Source of the DNA: Flavobacterium lacustre
GTDB taxonomy: Bacteria > Bacteroidota > Bacteroidia > Flavobacteriales > Flavobacteriaceae
Length of the DNA: 64,000 nt
Assembly: GCF_027474525.2 (NCBI RefSeq)
Contig: NZ_CP114882.2
Span: 2,356,001 to 2,420,000 of the forward strand
Direction: 5' to 3'
Shown here: in pieces, positions 6,850 to 57,540 of the stretch
Position numbering within the stretch: position 1 is the stretch's first letter
Layout: every line of letters starts with the position of its first letter
Notes under the pieces: generated by a model
Databases searched by the model: none
The model's input: only the letters and a program-made list of their open reading frames with translations
Told to the model about the DNA's origin: nothing
Program-made: the position numbers and the translations under genes

Positions 6850-6957
6850 GGTGGTTATTGCGGCGGGGCTCACCTCTTCCCATCCCGAACAGAGTAGTTA
6901 AGCCCGCCTGCGCAGATGGTACTGCAGTTATGTGGGAGAGTATGTCGTCGCCTTTCT
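6850..6957 (+). rRNA. rrf: 5S ribosomal RNA
   Basis: About 108 nt. It begins GGTGGTTATTGCGGCGGGG, contains CACCTCTTCCCATCCCGAAC (loop B/C region) and GTTAAGCCCGCC, and ends GGGAGAGTATGTCGTCGCC, which pairs with the 5' end. It is third in the operon, directly followed by terminator 1. Confidence 0.93.
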
Positions 6958-6996: not shown

Positions 6997-7027
6997 TAGG
7001 AACGACGTGTTCGGCTAAAGCCTCGGT

Positions 7028-7213: not shown

Positions 7214-7266
7214 TTGTAGATAAAATAAGGGATGTAACTTTATGAAATAACAATTTTGTAAGTTTG
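7214..7266 (+). promoter_or_regulatory. Candidate promoter(s) of the HipA-like/DUF3037 pair
   Basis: Two overlapping possibilities: TTG (7214-7216), an 18-bp spacer and TAACTTTA (7235-7242); or a perfect -7 box TAAGTTTG at 7259-7266 without a good -33. Either puts the transcription start upstream of the ATG at 7300. The second rules out the in-frame TTG at 7264 as a start. Confidence 0.5.
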
Positions 7267-7299
7267 TATCTAAGCATTATAGCTTTATTCAATTTGATT

Positions 7300-8094
7300 A
7301 TGGGAGAAACACTTCGTCTTAGAACTGTAAATGTTACGAGATACATCACTCCGCTGCGGGAAGGAGGCTCTTTGCCTGCGCTCGCTGAAGCTGATGATGA
7401 TTTTAAATATGTATTGAAATTTAAAGGTGCCGGTCATGGCGTTAAAGCTTTGATTGCCGAATTGATAGGTGGCGAAATTGCCCGTGCTTTACATTTAAAA
7501 ATGCCTGAGCTTGTTTTTGCTCATCTCGATGAAGCTTTTGGACGTTCGGAAGGGGATGAAGAAATTCAAGATTTGCTTCAAGGGAGTCAGGGGCTTAATC
7601 TGGCTTTGCATTTTTTATCCGGTGCTATTACTTTTGATCCCGTTGTAACGGTTGTTGATCCTGAATTGGCTTCTCAAATTGTTTGGTTAGATGCTTATAT
7701 TACTAATGTAGATCGTACTTTCAGGAATACGAATATGTTGATTTGGCATAAAGAATTATGGTTGATTGATCATGGTGCTTCGCTTTATTTTCATCATTCG
7801 TGGAGTAATTGGAAGAATCATGCACAAAGTCCTTTTGCATTGATAAAAGATCATGTGTTGTTCCCTCAGGCTTCTTTATTATCTGAAACGGATGTCTTAT
7901 TTAAAAAAATATTGACTGCCGAAGTATTGCACTCTATTGTGGATTTGATTCCAGAGGAGTGGTTACTTTGGGAAGATACTGATGAAACTCCAGAAGCTAT
8001 TCGGGAGGTGTATTTTCAGTTTTTGATTACGCGTTTGAATCATTCCGAAATTTTTATAAACGAAGCACAAAATGCAAGAGAAACACTTATATGA
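7300..8094 (+). CDS. HipA-like kinase-fold protein
   Basis: A 264-residue protein resembling the compact HipA-family kinases, about 60% of the length of classical HipA toxins and lacking the N-terminal HipA subdomain. Visible kinase features are YVLKFKG (Lys40, likely nucleotide-binding), a catalytic-loop-like DAYITNVDRTFRNTN (Asp138, Asn143/Asn145) and LIDHG (Asp157) in the place of the metal-binding Asp. No HTH or HipB-like antitoxin gene is adjacent. Instead its last 23 bp overlap the DUF3037 gene, so the two are probably translationally coupled. ATG 7300 is preferred over the TTG at 7264, which lies in a likely -7 box. The family is fairly clear; the substrate and biological role are unknown. 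Confidence 0.75.
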   Translation: MGETLRLRTVNVTRYITPLREGGSLPALAEADDDFKYVLKFKGAGHGVKALIAELIGGEIARALHLKMPELVFAHLDEAFGRSEGDEEIQDLLQGSQGLNLALHFLSGAITFDPVVTVVDPELASQIVWLDAYITNVDRTFRNTNMLIWHKELWLIDHGASLYFHHSWSNWKNHAQSPFALIKDHVLFPQASLLSETDVLFKKILTAEVLHSIVDLIPEEWLLWEDTDETPEAIREVYFQFLITRLNHSEIFINEAQNARETLI

Positions 8095-8455
8095 GTATGC
8101 CGTAATCCGTGTTGTGCCAAAGGTAGAACGCGAAGAATTCCTCAATGTGGGTATTATTCTTTTTTGTAAGAAAGCGAAGTTTATACAAGTACTTTGTTCT
8201 ATTAACGAAGCTAAACTCCAATTGTTTTCGGGGGATTTAGATTTGGAACAACTGCATTTTAATTTACTGGCATTTGAGAAAGTGGCACATGGTGATAAAA
8301 CGGGAGGACCAATTGGTCAGTTTGATATTCCTTCCCGGTTTCGTTGGTTGACTGCTATTCGTAGTTCTGCGATACAAACGTCTCGACCCCATTCTGGTTT
8401 GTGTGATGATTTGGAACAAACGGCGCAACGATTGTTTGCAGAACTGGTTTTGTAA
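8072..8455 (+). CDS. DUF3037 domain-containing protein
   Basis: A 127-residue cytosolic protein starting MQEKHLYEYAVIRVVPKVER, with the DUF3037 hallmarks Y-A-V-I-R-V-V-P and REEFLNVGIIL near the N-terminus and SGLCDDLEQTAQRLF at the C-terminus. The start overlaps the HipA-like gene by 23 bp in another frame, which implies coupled translation. DUF3037 next to a HipA-like kinase is, as far as I recall, a recurrent pair across bacteria, so it may be the partner, substrate or antidote of the kinase. That role is inference; no activity is known to me. Confidence 0.75.
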   Translation: MQEKHLYEYAVIRVVPKVEREEFLNVGIILFCKKAKFIQVLCSINEAKLQLFSGDLDLEQLHFNLLAFEKVAHGDKTGGPIGQFDIPSRFRWLTAIRSSAIQTSRPHSGLCDDLEQTAQRLFAELVL

Positions 8456-9775: not shown

Positions 9776-9815
9776 AACTCTTTTGCGGATAGGAAAATTA
9801 CAAATGTGCATGAGA

Positions 9816-10051
9816 GAATCGCAACTGCAGGCACAAGAATCACAACTGCAGCCCCGAGAATCGCAACTGCAGGCACAAGAATCGTAACTGCAGCCCCGAG
9901 AATCGCAACTGCAGGCAGGAGTATCGCAACTGCAGCCCCGAGAATCGCAACTGCAGGCAGGAGTATCGCAACTGCAGGCAGGAGTATCGCAACTGCAGCC
10001 CCGAGAATCGCAACTGCAGGTAGGAGAATCGTAACTGCAGGCACAAGAATC
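9816..10051. repeat. Minisatellite: 11 x 21-bp tandem repeats
   Basis: Eleven complete units run over 9816-10046, followed by a GAATC remnant. Each unit is GAATCGCAACTGCAG (minor changes: GTATC, CACAA, CGTAA) plus a variable hexamer. The hexamer order is GCACAA, CCCCGA, GCACAA, CCCCGA, GCAGGA, CCCCGA, GCAGGA, GCAGGA, CCCCGA, GTAGGA, GCACAA. Every unit carries the palindrome CTGCAG once, so palindromes recur every 21 bp (two helical turns). Because 21 is divisible by 3, several frames stay open and would encode 7-residue repeats (for example IATAGTR). No convincing gene start or homologous protein is apparent, so I treat it as non-coding. Confidence 0.9.
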
Positions 10052-10152: not shown

Positions 10153-10878
10153 TTATTTTATGAATGTAAATTTTATACCACTGATTTGTTTGTACTCCGG
10201 ACTTGTGGAACCGTAGAGGGATTTTATGTAGTTCTTGACATCTTTGGCGGTGTCTACAAGCCCTGTGATTGGGGTGTAAAGTGATTTGTTTCTGGCAATC
10301 ATGGCGTTGCTGTATGGCGTGTATGTGGCGGTTACGGAGGCGTTTGCTGTTTCGAGTTGGGTTATGTATGTAGTGAGGGTCACTACTTTGATTGGGGTTT
10401 CGTTTGGGATGTATTTGGGTTCTGTTTTTACGAGTTCTACTAAGTTTTTGAAATGATCGATTCTCATATCATAACTTTGTTGGGAGGTCGAGATTGTTTT
10501 GGCGGCTGCTTCTCCCTCTGCTGTTGCTGTGCCGGTAGCGGCGCTTTTGCCTTGTATTTTTTTGTTGATGGTCTCGGCGTCTTTGAGCAGGGTTACTGGG
10601 GCATTGACTGCTTTTAAGGCTCCCAAAACTTTGGTTGCTAATGGTTTTAGGGGTTTGAACGCCAGCATTCTCACTCCCTCGGCATTGTCTGCGGGAACTT
10701 TGGTTGTTTTTACGGTTTGAATGGTTGCTTTTGCACTTGTTTTCATTGTATTGAGTGCTGCCAGTGCTATGCTGGTGTTTGAGGGGTTGTAAGTTGCGCC
10801 GTAGCCTGTGCAAAAAGAGATGAGTGTCTCGAAGTTTGCCACGTTTTTTGTGTGTCCTGTTTCTGATGTAGAAGCCAT
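10153..10878 (-). CDS. Hypothetical Ala/Thr/Lys-rich protein
   Basis: A 241-residue protein with no signal peptide or membrane segment. It starts MASTSETGHTKNVANFETLI. It has low-complexity Ala/Thr stretches (SAATGTATAEGEAAAKTIST, about 113-132), an FCTGYGATYNPSN motif near the N-terminus and a predicted-helical C-terminal half ending SGIKFTFIK. I recognise similar uncharacterised Flavobacteriaceae proteins but no domain. Its GC content looks higher than that of the genes to its right. The gene stands alone, separated from the convergent SYLF unit by a terminator. No function is proposed. Confidence 0.7.
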   Translation of the reverse strand: MASTSETGHTKNVANFETLISFCTGYGATYNPSNTSIALAALNTMKTSAKATIQTVKTTKVPADNAEGVRMLAFKPLKPLATKVLGALKAVNAPVTLLKDAETINKKIQGKSAATGTATAEGEAAAKTISTSQQSYDMRIDHFKNLVELVKTEPKYIPNETPIKVVTLTTYITQLETANASVTATYTPYSNAMIARNKSLYTPITGLVDTAKDVKNYIKSLYGSTSPEYKQISGIKFTFIK

Positions 10879-11067
10879 AATTTTGAGGGTTTTAAATGTT
10901 TAATTATATACTCAAAATAATACTATTCCTACTTATTGTGCAATACCCACTTTTAGTGATATTTCATTTATTTTTTGGGGAGGGTTTGGGGATGAAACGG
11001 ATTTAAAACGATTTTCGCGGATTTGTTTTGGTGTTTAAGAGCGGGATGCTCGCGCTAGCGTTACTAT

Positions 11068-11319
11068 TTAGCTATTTGTATTCTTTTTTGACTGTAACAT
11101 TTGTAGGTTTTTTTGGGAATCAAAATCTTTTGCTATTCCGCTGTCGATTCCTTCTTGAATTGCAATTCTTAGAGCAATAACTTTATTTTCTTCTTCTTCA
11201 AGCATTCTGAGTCCGGCACGAATGACTTCGCTAGCATTTTGAAAACGACCTTTTGAAACACTTTTTTCGATAAATGTTTCGAAATGATTACCTAACGATA
11301 TGGATATGTTCTTTCCCAT
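11068..11319 (-). CDS. ParD-family antitoxin (ribbon-helix-helix), apparently orphan
   Basis: An 83-residue protein. MGKNISISLGNHFETFIEKSV followed by GRFQNASEVIRAGLRMLEEEE is the ParD/CopG ribbon-helix-helix signature: the DNA-contacting beta-strand NISISL, then the alphaA-alphaB helices with S-E-V-I-R-A-G-L-R-x-L-E. The C-terminal third would normally wrap the ParE toxin. In most loci parE starts within or just after parD, but the 189 bp downstream (10879-11067) contain no ParE-like frame. The toxin is therefore absent, and the gene is either a solitary regulator or a leftover antitoxin. It abuts an attC-like dyad, in an AT-rich accessory stretch. Confidence 0.8.
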   Translation of the reverse strand: MGKNISISLGNHFETFIEKSVSKGRFQNASEVIRAGLRMLEEEENKVIALRIAIQEGIDSGIAKDFDSQKNLQMLQSKKNTNS

Positions 11320-11370
11320 GATAATTGTATCAAAATTTTGTAATTGTTGTAGGTTACTCTCGAAAATTTG

Positions 11371-11506
11371 AGATAACGTTCAGGTCCTACAGCGGGTTTG
11401 GGACTAAATTAAACCTATTCTTCGGATTTGCCAAAATTCCCAAATACAAAACAAACTTTTGATTAAGTCAATTGCCTAAATCCGTTGTAGATGTTGGAAG
11501 TAGTTA
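11371..11506. repeat. attC-like imperfect dyad element
   Basis: Arms CTACAGCGGGTTTGGG (11387-11402) and CCTAAATCCGTTGTAG (11475-11490) pair over 16 positions when G-T wobbles are allowed (three wobbles). Outer blocks TAACGTTCAGG and GGAAGTAGTTAC extend the symmetry. The right side touches the stop codon of the next gene, as cassette recombination sites do. No integrase is in the window and the core triplets do not fit the integron attC consensus well, so it is only attC-like; a Bacteroidota intergenic repeat is the alternative. Confidence 0.45.
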
Positions 11507-12184
11507 CGATAAGGCTTTAATTTTTCTCCATTGAATTTCAATAATAGTACGTGATGACTTAATTATATTTTCTCGTATCTGTCTGAATTTCCCAATATTA
11601 AAATCTTTATCTGTAAGCAATAAAATATCTAACATGTCTTGTAAATAGTCATGAAAAATAGCATATTCTTTTTTGTTTGGATTGATTAACATTTCAAGCT
11701 TGGCTTTAGTGTATAAAAATTTTTCATATATCGGATGAGTTATGTCATCTTTAACTGGACTTGAATCATCCGGCATAAGGATAGTTGAATATGAAATGAA
11801 ATCACTCACAGAATGGCGGAATTCGTTGATCCAATCTTGACGATTTTTTGTTGCTATTGTTGACTTGAATTGGGTTAGAGTAATTTCTTTAGCGTTTTCT
11901 ATTTGCTTATTCATATTTATTTCGTTTGACTTACGTAAACAATGTGCAATTATTAAATTGATAACGGCAGAAGCCACTCCGATTAACAAAGCAGCTATCC
12001 AAGGCATATTATTATGATAAAAACTTTCAGATTCTTTACGAACAGTCACGTCTTTAATTTCAATTGGATTTTTAGAATCAATAATGAAATTAGTTAAAGT
12101 TATTTCTTTCTCCTTCAAATTTTCTTTTGAATAAATATTGAAAAAAGATAAAAATATTATATGAACGAGGAGAATTTTTCTCAT
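11504..12184 (-). CDS. Hypothetical membrane protein with single TM and cytosolic helical domain
   Basis: A 226-residue protein. An N-terminal signal-like segment (MRKILLVHIIFLSFFNIYS) is followed by about 40 extracytoplasmic residues, one transmembrane helix (WIAALLIGVASAVINLIIAH, about 62-81), and a charged cytosolic helical part with NRQDWINEFRHSVSDFIS (114-131). The W-I-x-x-F/L-R motif after a TM occurs in many uncharacterised accessory membrane proteins, some near defence genes. I recognise no named family. It lies 33 bp downstream of the GIY-YIG gene on the same strand, so the two could be co-transcribed. Both are more AT-rich than the flanking thr genes, which suggests recent acquisition. 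Confidence 0.65.
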   Translation of the reverse strand: MRKILLVHIIFLSFFNIYSKENLKEKEITLTNFIIDSKNPIEIKDVTVRKESESFYHNNMPWIAALLIGVASAVINLIIAHCLRKSNEINMNKQIENAKEITLTQFKSTIATKNRQDWINEFRHSVSDFISYSTILMPDDSSPVKDDITHPIYEKFLYTKAKLEMLINPNKKEYAIFHDYLQDMLDILLLTDKDFNIGKFRQIRENIIKSSRTIIEIQWRKIKALS

Positions 12185-12217: not shown

Positions 12218-13693
12218 TTATTTTAATGTCTCTATTATATGTTCAATATCCTTTAGGTCTAATTCAAACCATTCTCCTCTTAATCTTTTTTCCGAATATG
12301 TTTCATGTAATGCCTTTTCAATACTTTCTGCTATTTTTCTAATTGGAAATTTCTTGGATACAATTATTTCGATTGTTGGTTTTTCACTTTGTAAAGTTCT
12401 TTCTCTATATTCTGGTTTGTTAGAAATTCCTATTTTGTAATAGTTGTTACTTGTATCGTGCATTAAATAAACAGAACAAAAATCTGTTGTTATTTCTTTA
12501 ACCATTACTGCTTGTTTTAATTCAGTTGGTTTGTAATCGGGTATGTTTTTCTTTACGAATTCGACATATTCTCTTGTAAATTTTTTAATTACTATTTGAA
12601 TATTGTTTTTCGTTGAATAAAAGTCATCTCCACCAATTTCTCCACCTAAAATATCTCTTTTATCGCTAACTAGTGAGATTTTCCATTTAATGAAAATAGA
12701 ATTTGAAAATATTTCAAGTTCAGTTTTTGTAATTAATCCTTTGTATTCTAAAATTTTTTCGTTTAGGCTGTTTTTCGATGATATTGGGTTTTCATGTAAT
12801 TCAAATTGAATTTGTTTTCCATTTTCAAATAAAAATAAGACTTTATCAGATTGCCTTGGTCTTATTTGTTTTGGGTTAAAATGAAATATGATGTAGTCAT
12901 TGTTATCAATGTAATTTAAAGTAAAAAGAAAATCTGTTATAGAGTCATCAGATTTTGTTTTAATACCTGTATTTCTTCCAAATCTTGAGCTGACTGTATG
13001 CCAATTAATTATTCTTGAGTTAGTAAATTCGTCAACAATAAGATTAGGTATGTTAATGAATCGCTCACTAATTCTTTGCTCATCACTATTTCTAATTATA
13101 TATATTAACTCATAGTCTTTTAAAAGAACAACCTTGCAAGGGTCAATTTGAAAAATGAAGCCATCTTTTTTTGAATAGTTTGTCTGCTTTTGACGGTTTG
13201 AATCATTGTATGTAAAAATTGGTTCACCAATTTTTACATATGCACCATCTTTGACTAACCATTTGTCAAACGAATAGTTATAACTAGGACTTTTAAAATA
13301 TTCTTTAAACTCTGAATTTTCTATCGAATTTTCATTTTGGAATTCTCCTTTTGGATGAAGTTTGTAAAAAAAAATTCCATTAGAAAGGATGTCGTCTTTT
13401 TTTAAAGTATGTTCTAAAATTCCAGATCTTGAAGCAATTATACTCGCTGATGTGAAGTTAAATCCGCTTTTTTCTCCAATACGAATTATACAAATTGGCT
13501 GGCCAATTTCAATCCATTCTCCATTCGGTTTATTGTATTCGTAAAAGTAAAAGGATTTATTTCTATCATTTTCTGGAAAGTCATTTATTTCAAATTCACC
13601 AAGACCAAATTCAGACGATTTATCTGTTTCGTTTTCAGAAACATTTTCAATTTTTTTCTGGTCAGATTTAAATATGTTTCTAAAAAAAGTCAT
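12218..13693 (-). CDS. GIY-YIG (T5orf172/Mug113-like) protein with N-terminal barrel domains
   Basis: A 491-residue protein. The C-terminus (about 400-491) is a GIY-YIG nuclease fold of the T5orf172/MUG113 type: CSVYLMHD (408-410 for VYL), YYKIGIS (YKIG 419-422), Arg430 in the helix, Glu456/Glu459 and His463 in AESIEKALHE, and GEWFEL (473-478). The N-terminal half contains two stretches resembling biotinyl/lipoyl-type barrel-sandwich domains: NGEWIEIGQPICIIRIG..ASRSGILE (about 55-95) and KWLVKDGAYVKIGEPIF (about 143-160). Neither has an obvious modifiable Lys. About 230-390 is beta-rich and unassigned. It may be a nuclease or a DNA-binding effector. The architecture is unfamiliar to me, and the AT-rich setting suggests horizontal transfer. 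Confidence 0.7.
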   Translation of the reverse strand: MTFFRNIFKSDQKKIENVSENETDKSSEFGLGEFEINDFPENDRNKSFYFYEYNKPNGEWIEIGQPICIIRIGEKSGFNFTSASIIASRSGILEHTLKKDDILSNGIFFYKLHPKGEFQNENSIENSEFKEYFKSPSYNYSFDKWLVKDGAYVKIGEPIFTYNDSNRQKQTNYSKKDGFIFQIDPCKVVLLKDYELIYIIRNSDEQRISERFINIPNLIVDEFTNSRIINWHTVSSRFGRNTGIKTKSDDSITDFLFTLNYIDNNDYIIFHFNPKQIRPRQSDKVLFLFENGKQIQFELHENPISSKNSLNEKILEYKGLITKTELEIFSNSIFIKWKISLVSDKRDILGGEIGGDDFYSTKNNIQIVIKKFTREYVEFVKKNIPDYKPTELKQAVMVKEITTDFCSVYLMHDTSNNYYKIGISNKPEYRERTLQSEKPTIEIIVSKKFPIRKIAESIEKALHETYSEKRLRGEWFELDLKDIEHIIETLK

Positions 13694-57369: not shown

Positions 57370-57475
57370 GGGCGTGACCCTCCGTAAAAACTACGGGTCG
57401 GGCTATCCGTTCCCGCTTTTTTTGTAAGGCGAAAAAAGCCTCACAAAAAAGAGCTCCACTTCTATCCCTCACGCA
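57370..57475. repeat. Dispersed intergenic repeat, copy B
   Basis: GCGTGA (57372-57377) and TCACGC (57469-57474) form inverted ends. GGTCGGGCTAT (57396-57406) and CACTTCTATCCCTCACGCA (57457-57475) match copy A at 971-1053. The centre TTTTTTTGTAAGGC/GCCTCACAAAAAA is a hairpin. It lies inside a likely operon, between the two Fe-S genes, so it is transcribed. Confidence 0.7.
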
Positions 57476-57540
57476 CACCGCAAATAAGAGCAAAGAAGGA
57501 GCATATAAAACTAAATCGAATAACAGATAAAAAGGATACA

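Follow-up and report, generated by a model that had tools for sequence, protein, structure and literature searches.

A HipA-like kinase and a short DUF3037 protein form a two-gene unit in Flavobacterium and appear to be a lineage distinct from HipAD

We analysed a window of 64,000 nucleotides from Flavobacterium lacustre (contig NZ_CP114882.2, positions 2,356,001 to 2,420,000), in which a gene for a HipA-like kinase overlaps a downstream gene for a protein of the DUF3037 family. Kinase and DUF3037 form a strict two-gene unit. Judged from sequence comparison, the pair in the window represents a lineage distinct from the HipAD system, with a partner that consists of DUF3037 alone. An earlier note on this DNA stated that no function had been described for such a pair. 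This does not hold for the kind, which PADLOC lists as the candidate PDC-M66 and of which longer relatives, HipAD and the Retron-Sda1 pair, have been published as anti-phage systems. It appears to hold for the short lineage, a chromosomally settled variant with a different partner architecture.

DUF3037 was detected in 87 of the 395 genomes sampled from the phylum. The 90 matches listed comprised a short form (67 matches with an open frame of at most 200 aa), to which the protein in the window belongs, and a long form (23 matches of at least 278 aa). Within the genus, 116 of 199 genomes contained the short form, each in exactly one copy, and a comparison of coordinates placed a kinase gene beside it in 116 of 116. 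Six further DUF3037 matches were of the long type or fragments, and each of these also lay beside a kinase. When only genus genomes of good quality were considered, the short pair was present in 113 of 167, while G285 had the long type only. At the family level DUF3037 occurred in 33 of 199 genomes, again with an adjacent kinase in all 33. The kinase was located directly upstream of DUF3037 in all 80 named loci (the best 80 of 578 confirmed stretches), and 77 of these encoded a DUF3037 protein of 126–131 aa. The two genes overlapped by 23 bp in 41 of the named loci, by 11 bp in 28, and by other lengths in 11, partly depending on the choice of start codon. Chance adjacency is excluded by these counts (116/116, 80/80), and the recurrence elsewhere that the earlier note had proposed to survey was thereby found.

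Conversely, 12 kinase matches in the genus at first lacked an adjacent DUF3037 match. After their DNA was read none proved to be of the short type: seven had a long DUF3037 partner (277–293 aa) missed by the Pfam search, one was a partnerless long-type kinase, and four matched neither profile. A short-type kinase was never found alone in the 199 genomes. Nine genus genomes (G203, G206, G358, G383, G214, G255, G274, G319, G371) held both pair types, although the long partner in G383 is a fragment match only. Long-type pairs in genus genomes that also hold a short pair were recorded at loci L111, L113, L114 and L329–L334.

The kinase matched PF20613 (HipA_2) in Pfam (E 1.2e-19) and PDC-M66A in PADLOC (E 9.4e-22). 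NCBIfam gave no match for either protein, and PHROGs gave two families of unknown function, with the DUF3037 match extending over the first half of its family. We aligned 50 kinases chosen by hand, five of them of the long type. The residues K40, D131, N136, D138, R139, N145 and D157 were present in all 50, and N143 stood in a column conserved to at least 90%. We take Lys40 to be the lysine that binds adenosine triphosphate, Asp157 the metal-binding aspartate, and D131–N145 the catalytic loop. The AlphaFold2 model had a predicted local distance difference test (pLDDT) score of 91.7, and its predicted fold resembled HipA, CtkA and phosphatidylinositol 4-kinase (PI4K). Sequence searches against solved structures gave no convincing match; the top match of one search was a glycosyltransferase (E 0.008), and a type 2 PI4K followed at E 0.23. 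The alignment and the model point to a kinase of the HipA type whose catalytic residues are intact and whose predicted fold is that of a kinase, in agreement with what had been noticed from the letters alone. One kinase longer than the query (P0121) was considered as a fusion with DUF3037, but it contains an internal kinase duplication instead.

The partner protein matched PF11236 over residues 9–126 (E 8.5e-44). Two of its residues were common to both forms: E22 occurred in 46 of 49 short and 18 of 18 long sequences, and G27 in all 49 short and all 18 long ones. In contrast, R89, F90, W92, A95, S98, Q102 and G109 were invariant in the 49 short sequences, which include Streptomyces and Leptolyngbya, whereas each occurred in at most half of the 18 long ones. 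The small size of the protein in the window is not a local truncation of the long form, as the partner is short throughout the group. A comparison of 43 DUF3037 members with Pfam gave no significant match to any other family, and none to a DNA-binding family. The weak matches included the N-terminal domain of H-NS in four of the 43 (best E 0.014) and a winged helix-turn-helix in one (E 0.38). Comparison at the level of sequence only gave no significant match to the HipS fold.

In a tree of 38 kinases, a single branch with support 100/98 separated 21 kinases with a short partner from 17 with a long partner. The short-partner kinases came from the phylum of the window and from Streptomyces, and a HipA from a phage was among the long-partner kinases. 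For three of these 17 the DUF3037 profile gave no match, but a long frame was present. The tree is unrooted, and a number of its branches, including that of the phage HipA, are long; from one row (L285) the N-terminal 186 residues, an apparent extension of a GC-rich open reading frame (ORF), were trimmed beforehand. The window kinase and the HipAD kinase lay on opposite sides of the separating branch. Furthermore, kinase and DUF3037 distances agreed with each other (r 0.93–0.96).

The original HipAD paper is reportedly that of Brenes and Laub from 2025. The phage record PV340545 annotates its pair as HipA toxin and HipD antitoxin. Like the pair in the window, HipAD (the former DS-6) and the pair of this phage consist of a PF20613 kinase followed by an overlapping DUF3037 gene, with the same catalytic residues and no HipB. 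They differ in that HipD has 280 aa and covers positions 6–271 of the 281 in PDC-M66B, against 127 aa for the window partner, and in that the window pair is chromosomal and falls in the other kinase group. According to excerpts of a report on this E. coli prophage system, a catalytic mutant loses defence, AlphaFold3 predicts contact between the two proteins and a slightly weaker contact with DNA, and DS-6B carries DUF1829 as well (PMC13092281). Our Pfam scan of the PV340545 HipD showed no DUF1829. The HipA/DUF3037 pair of Retron-Sda1, also of PDC-M66, has the same domain pair; passages of its report describe standalone defence against Bas51 in E. coli, which is abolished by deletion of the kinase, whereas deletion of DUF3037 is toxic (PMC12548924). 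The same source describes a C-terminal part of this DUF3037 resembling a retron DNA-binding protein (PMC12548924), and the window protein has no such part. HipBST likewise combines a short HipA-like kinase core with a small partner, HipS, described in part of its report as blocking HipT through direct contact beside the Gly-rich loop (PMC10627512), but it comprises three genes including a helix-turn-helix HipB, compared with two genes in the window. HipBA shares the kinase fold and catalytic residues; the window pair has no HipB beside it and its kinase has just 264 aa. CtkA-type kinases share the fold of the window kinase model at 14% identity, and we know of no DUF3037 partner for them.

With moderate confidence, we read the pair as a probable kinase toxin that DUF3037 keeps in check by binding to it directly; this corresponds to the toxin–antitoxin-like module among the options of the earlier note. 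DUF3037 translation would be coupled to that of the kinase, such that both proteins are made together, and DUF3037 would then bind the kinase and keep it inactive. The short DUF3037 is missing the C-terminal part for which DNA binding has been proposed in the long form, so inhibition would depend on the complex of the two proteins and not on repression in the manner of HipB; the lack of this half also argues against HipB-like autoregulation by DUF3037. A trigger, either phage infection or another stress, may free the kinase, which would phosphorylate a host protein and stop growth. The cell would become dormant or be lost, and the phage or stress would be contained. A plasmid of Leptolyngbya boryana (L158, 3628–4411) carries an intact DUF3037 gene beside a kinase remnant that covers residues 191–260 only, as expected if the kinase alone is harmful.

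Inheritance of the pair was compared with that of rpoB. Across 16 of the best-scoring genomes of the genus, pair distances tracked rpoB distances (r 0.92, 0 of 2000 permutations), while over 14 other genera they did not (r 0.07, 411 of 2000 permutations). When presence of the pair was mapped on an rpoB tree of 43 genomes (33 carrying it and 10 lacking it), 9 changes were required, compared with 9.2 for shuffled labels; 13 pair-less genomes had been taken from among those listed, and three were dropped (two without an rpoB match and one fragment). Since the deepest lineages of this tree have the pair, its history is most simply read as repeated loss, perhaps with some regain. Such loss of the whole unit would fit a dispensable, conditionally useful module, and the scattered absence rules out a strictly core gene set.

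The neighbours of the pair differed from clade to clade. We assigned the names NnrD-like, GcvT, ThrC, FabD and YceI from the sequences by recall, and they are to be read as presumed; GNAT comes from Pfam. In the 45 Flavobacterium-named loci most like the window, 40 pairs were near NnrD-like, GcvT, GNAT or ThrC genes and three near FabD/YceI. Among 22 genus loci picked mainly for long contigs, these contexts accounted for 11 and five, respectively. In three of five pair-less genomes the NnrD-like and ThrC genes were close neighbours, separated by 15 bp, 0.9 kb and 1.8 kb (BLAST ends), and the intervening DNA contained no pair; in the other two ThrC fell outside the stretch read. Plasmid records contained the kinase in 5 of 72,556 cases, two of them from Bacteroidales. 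One of the records (L159, NZ_OY725790.1) is labelled as a Parabacteroides plasmid, yet ribD, pyrE, argH and gltA surround the pair and it looks like a piece of chromosome. Phage records, searched with the kinase only, gave one match in 50,697, of the long type.

Several observations weigh against a toxin held off by its partner. Binding of DUF3037 to the kinase is itself inferred, and the characterised systems belong to the other kinase group and have partners of about 280 aa. PDC-M66B matched the window DUF3037 (E 7.9e-12) over profile positions 3–128 of 281 alone. The dense, invariant polar motif of the short DUF3037 seems to be more than a simple inhibitor would require. One long-type kinase of 207 aa (G308, L327 1967–2590, plus strand) had no DUF3037 within the 4.5 kb read. 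Many short loci adjoin housekeeping genes, six of the 22 genus loci were in neither main context, and in G248 and G210 the pair was present away from the NnrD-like locus, which was empty there, so that its position is not fixed. At an E-value of 1e-10, the neighbours of 35 short loci contained eight PADLOC families with one protein each among 130 proteins, a random sample taken under a length cap from 191 non-redundant ORFs of at least 100 aa. Five long loci contained ten families besides M66A/B, again with one protein each, among 71 proteins. Neither short nor long loci were clearly defence islands by these PADLOC counts, which come without a random-gene control. The short form did not appear in the viral_contigs set, in which two single-protein queries would find close relatives only. 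Taken together, the gene neighbourhoods, these PADLOC counts and the single-sequence viral scans showed no sign that prophages or defence islands carry the short pair. Moreover, a literature search found no paper on the short lineage and no toxicity or defence test of it, although the supplement of DUF3037 neighbourhoods to PMC12548924 may hold it.

Some of these features would suit a regulatory kinase that is not part of a toxin–antitoxin system, with DUF3037 as a sensor or activating subunit and a ligand at the RFxWLxAxRS/QxS/HxG site switching the kinase on or off. We regard this as possible but tentative. It would explain a motif that is invariant in the short form, including Streptomyces and Leptolyngbya, and is not invariant in the 18 long forms; it also accords with inheritance along with rpoB in the 16 Flavobacterium genomes, the housekeeping neighbours and the finding that none of the 116 genomes has more than one short copy. 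Scattered losses and the disagreement with rpoB across genera would, however, be unusual for a core regulator, and the homologous long-type pair acts as toxin and antitoxin (PMC12548924). The preference for a kinase toxin with DUF3037 as its inhibitor rests mainly on this homology to the tested long pairs. A broader and more speculative proposal, which we consider doubtful, is that the short pair constitutes an ancient kinase–sensor module of its own. DUF3037 would serve there as a ligand-sensing or catalytic gate instead of a DNA-binding antitoxin, and would use the invariant site to control the HipA-fold kinase purely by contact. HipAD would then be either a sister form or a derived one, with a second, DNA-binding domain, that moved onto phages.

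A metabolic kinase had also been among the earlier options. A metabolic or housekeeping kinase acting on a small molecule or protein, with DUF3037 as structural partner, is unlikely for a pair that occurs in no more than 116 of the 199 genomes of the genus and 33 of the 199 of the family, changes neighbours between clades and has been lost repeatedly. Least probable of all is that the pair is simply HipAD/PDC-M66, a phage defence system identical to it except for a truncated partner, for the matches to the PDC-M66A and PDC-M66B profiles and the shared gene order and domain pair are set against the separate kinase group (100/98), the nine genomes with both types and a partner that is short throughout the group.

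In the tested HipA–DUF3037 systems that we found the partner has a second domain, and the inhibitor could therefore be either DUF3037 itself or the tail. The short lineage, which is widespread, offers a naturally reduced version of the system and makes this question directly testable. At present one label, PDC-M66, spans two lineages with different partner architectures.

The motif TAnnTTTG, which we take to be the Bacteroidota-type −7 promoter consensus, occurred within 100 nt upstream of the pair in 45 of 46 Flavobacterium loci including the window (shuffled sequences: mean 2.8, maximum 9) and in 23 of 35 loci outside the genus (mean 2.3, maximum 9). The scan for a TTG-type −33 box was weak, with five of six letters in 12 of 46 loci (shuffled mean 5.7, maximum 12) and all six in five of 46 (mean 0.46, maximum 3); the −7 box by itself was strong. 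Of 276 pairs compared, 55 for the kinase and 93 for DUF3037 gave usable ratios of non-synonymous to synonymous substitution rates (dN/dS); the medians were 0.057 and 0.106, respectively, which shows purifying selection on both genes. The coordinates of all features are given in Table 1.

Table 1. Features of the kinase–DUF3037 locus in the window.
Feature	Position	Strand	Remarks
HipA-like kinase	7300..8094	+	ATG start, 264 aa; alternative TTG start at 7264 gives 276 aa
DUF3037 protein, short form without C-terminal half of HipD	8072..8455	+	127 aa, PF11236
Gene overlap, 23 bp	8072..8094	+	Two genes in different frames
Candidate −7 promoter box TAAGTTTG of operon	7259..7266	+	TAnnTTTG match, Bacteroidota-type (presumed)
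Lys40 of kinase	7417..7419	+	Invariant in 50/50 alignment rows
Catalytic loop (presumed) D131..N136..D138-R139..N143..N145 of kinase	7690..7734	+	D131, N136, D138, R139, N145 invariant in 50/50; N143 at least 90%
Asp157 of kinase	7768..7770	+	Invariant in 50/50 alignment rows
E22-x2-N25-x-G27 motif of DUF3037	8135..8152	+	E22, G27 common to long-form DUF3037
Short-form signature RFxWLxAxRSxxxQxSxxHxG of DUF3037, residues 89–109	8336..8398	+	Short vs long alignment

The 23-bp overlap described in the earlier note is exact, and its two reading frames rule out a read-through fusion of kinase and DUF3037. The start at 7214 given there is a leader position, and coding begins at the ATG at 7300, which fits the residue numbers used in the same note. 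The leader contains inverted repeats of 8 and 9 nt. As had been stated, no HipB lies beside the pair: upstream is the 5S ribosomal RNA (rRNA), which ends at 6956, with no ORF of at least 80 aa between it and the kinase in the ORF list of the window, and downstream is a GNAT acetyltransferase gene (Pfam) on the opposite strand. The position directly after an rRNA operon is correct for this genome but not as a general context, as an rRNA neighbour was found in 0 of 40 other loci of one set and in 1 of 102 of a second (22 of them common to the first), a Dysgonomonas locus with a 16S edge. The operon is peculiar to the window genome and is thereby ruled out as functional context. The window has kept the GNAT/ThrC side, with the rRNA operon on the opposite side, and the only NnrD-like match of its genome lies 0.54 Mb away (44% identical). 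The GC content of the pair is 38–40%, compared with 34% for window positions 7000–64000.

Several other elements were recorded in the window. A tandem repeat of 21 bp at 9814–10051 (11.3 copies, 82% matches) is open in frames of both strands. A gene for a ParD-family antitoxin (PF03693, E 5.4e-25) at 11068–11319 on the minus strand is a candidate orphan antitoxin, with no obvious ParE seen by eye among ORFs of at least 25 aa at 10850–11510. At 12218–13693 (minus strand), a protein of 491 aa has a C-terminal T5orf172/MUG113 domain and a weak match to PDC-S57 of PADLOC (E 0.0024). Finally, a Flavo-1 RNA (RF01705) was located at 57392–57489 on the minus strand, where it scored 50.3 bits, above the cut-off of 42.
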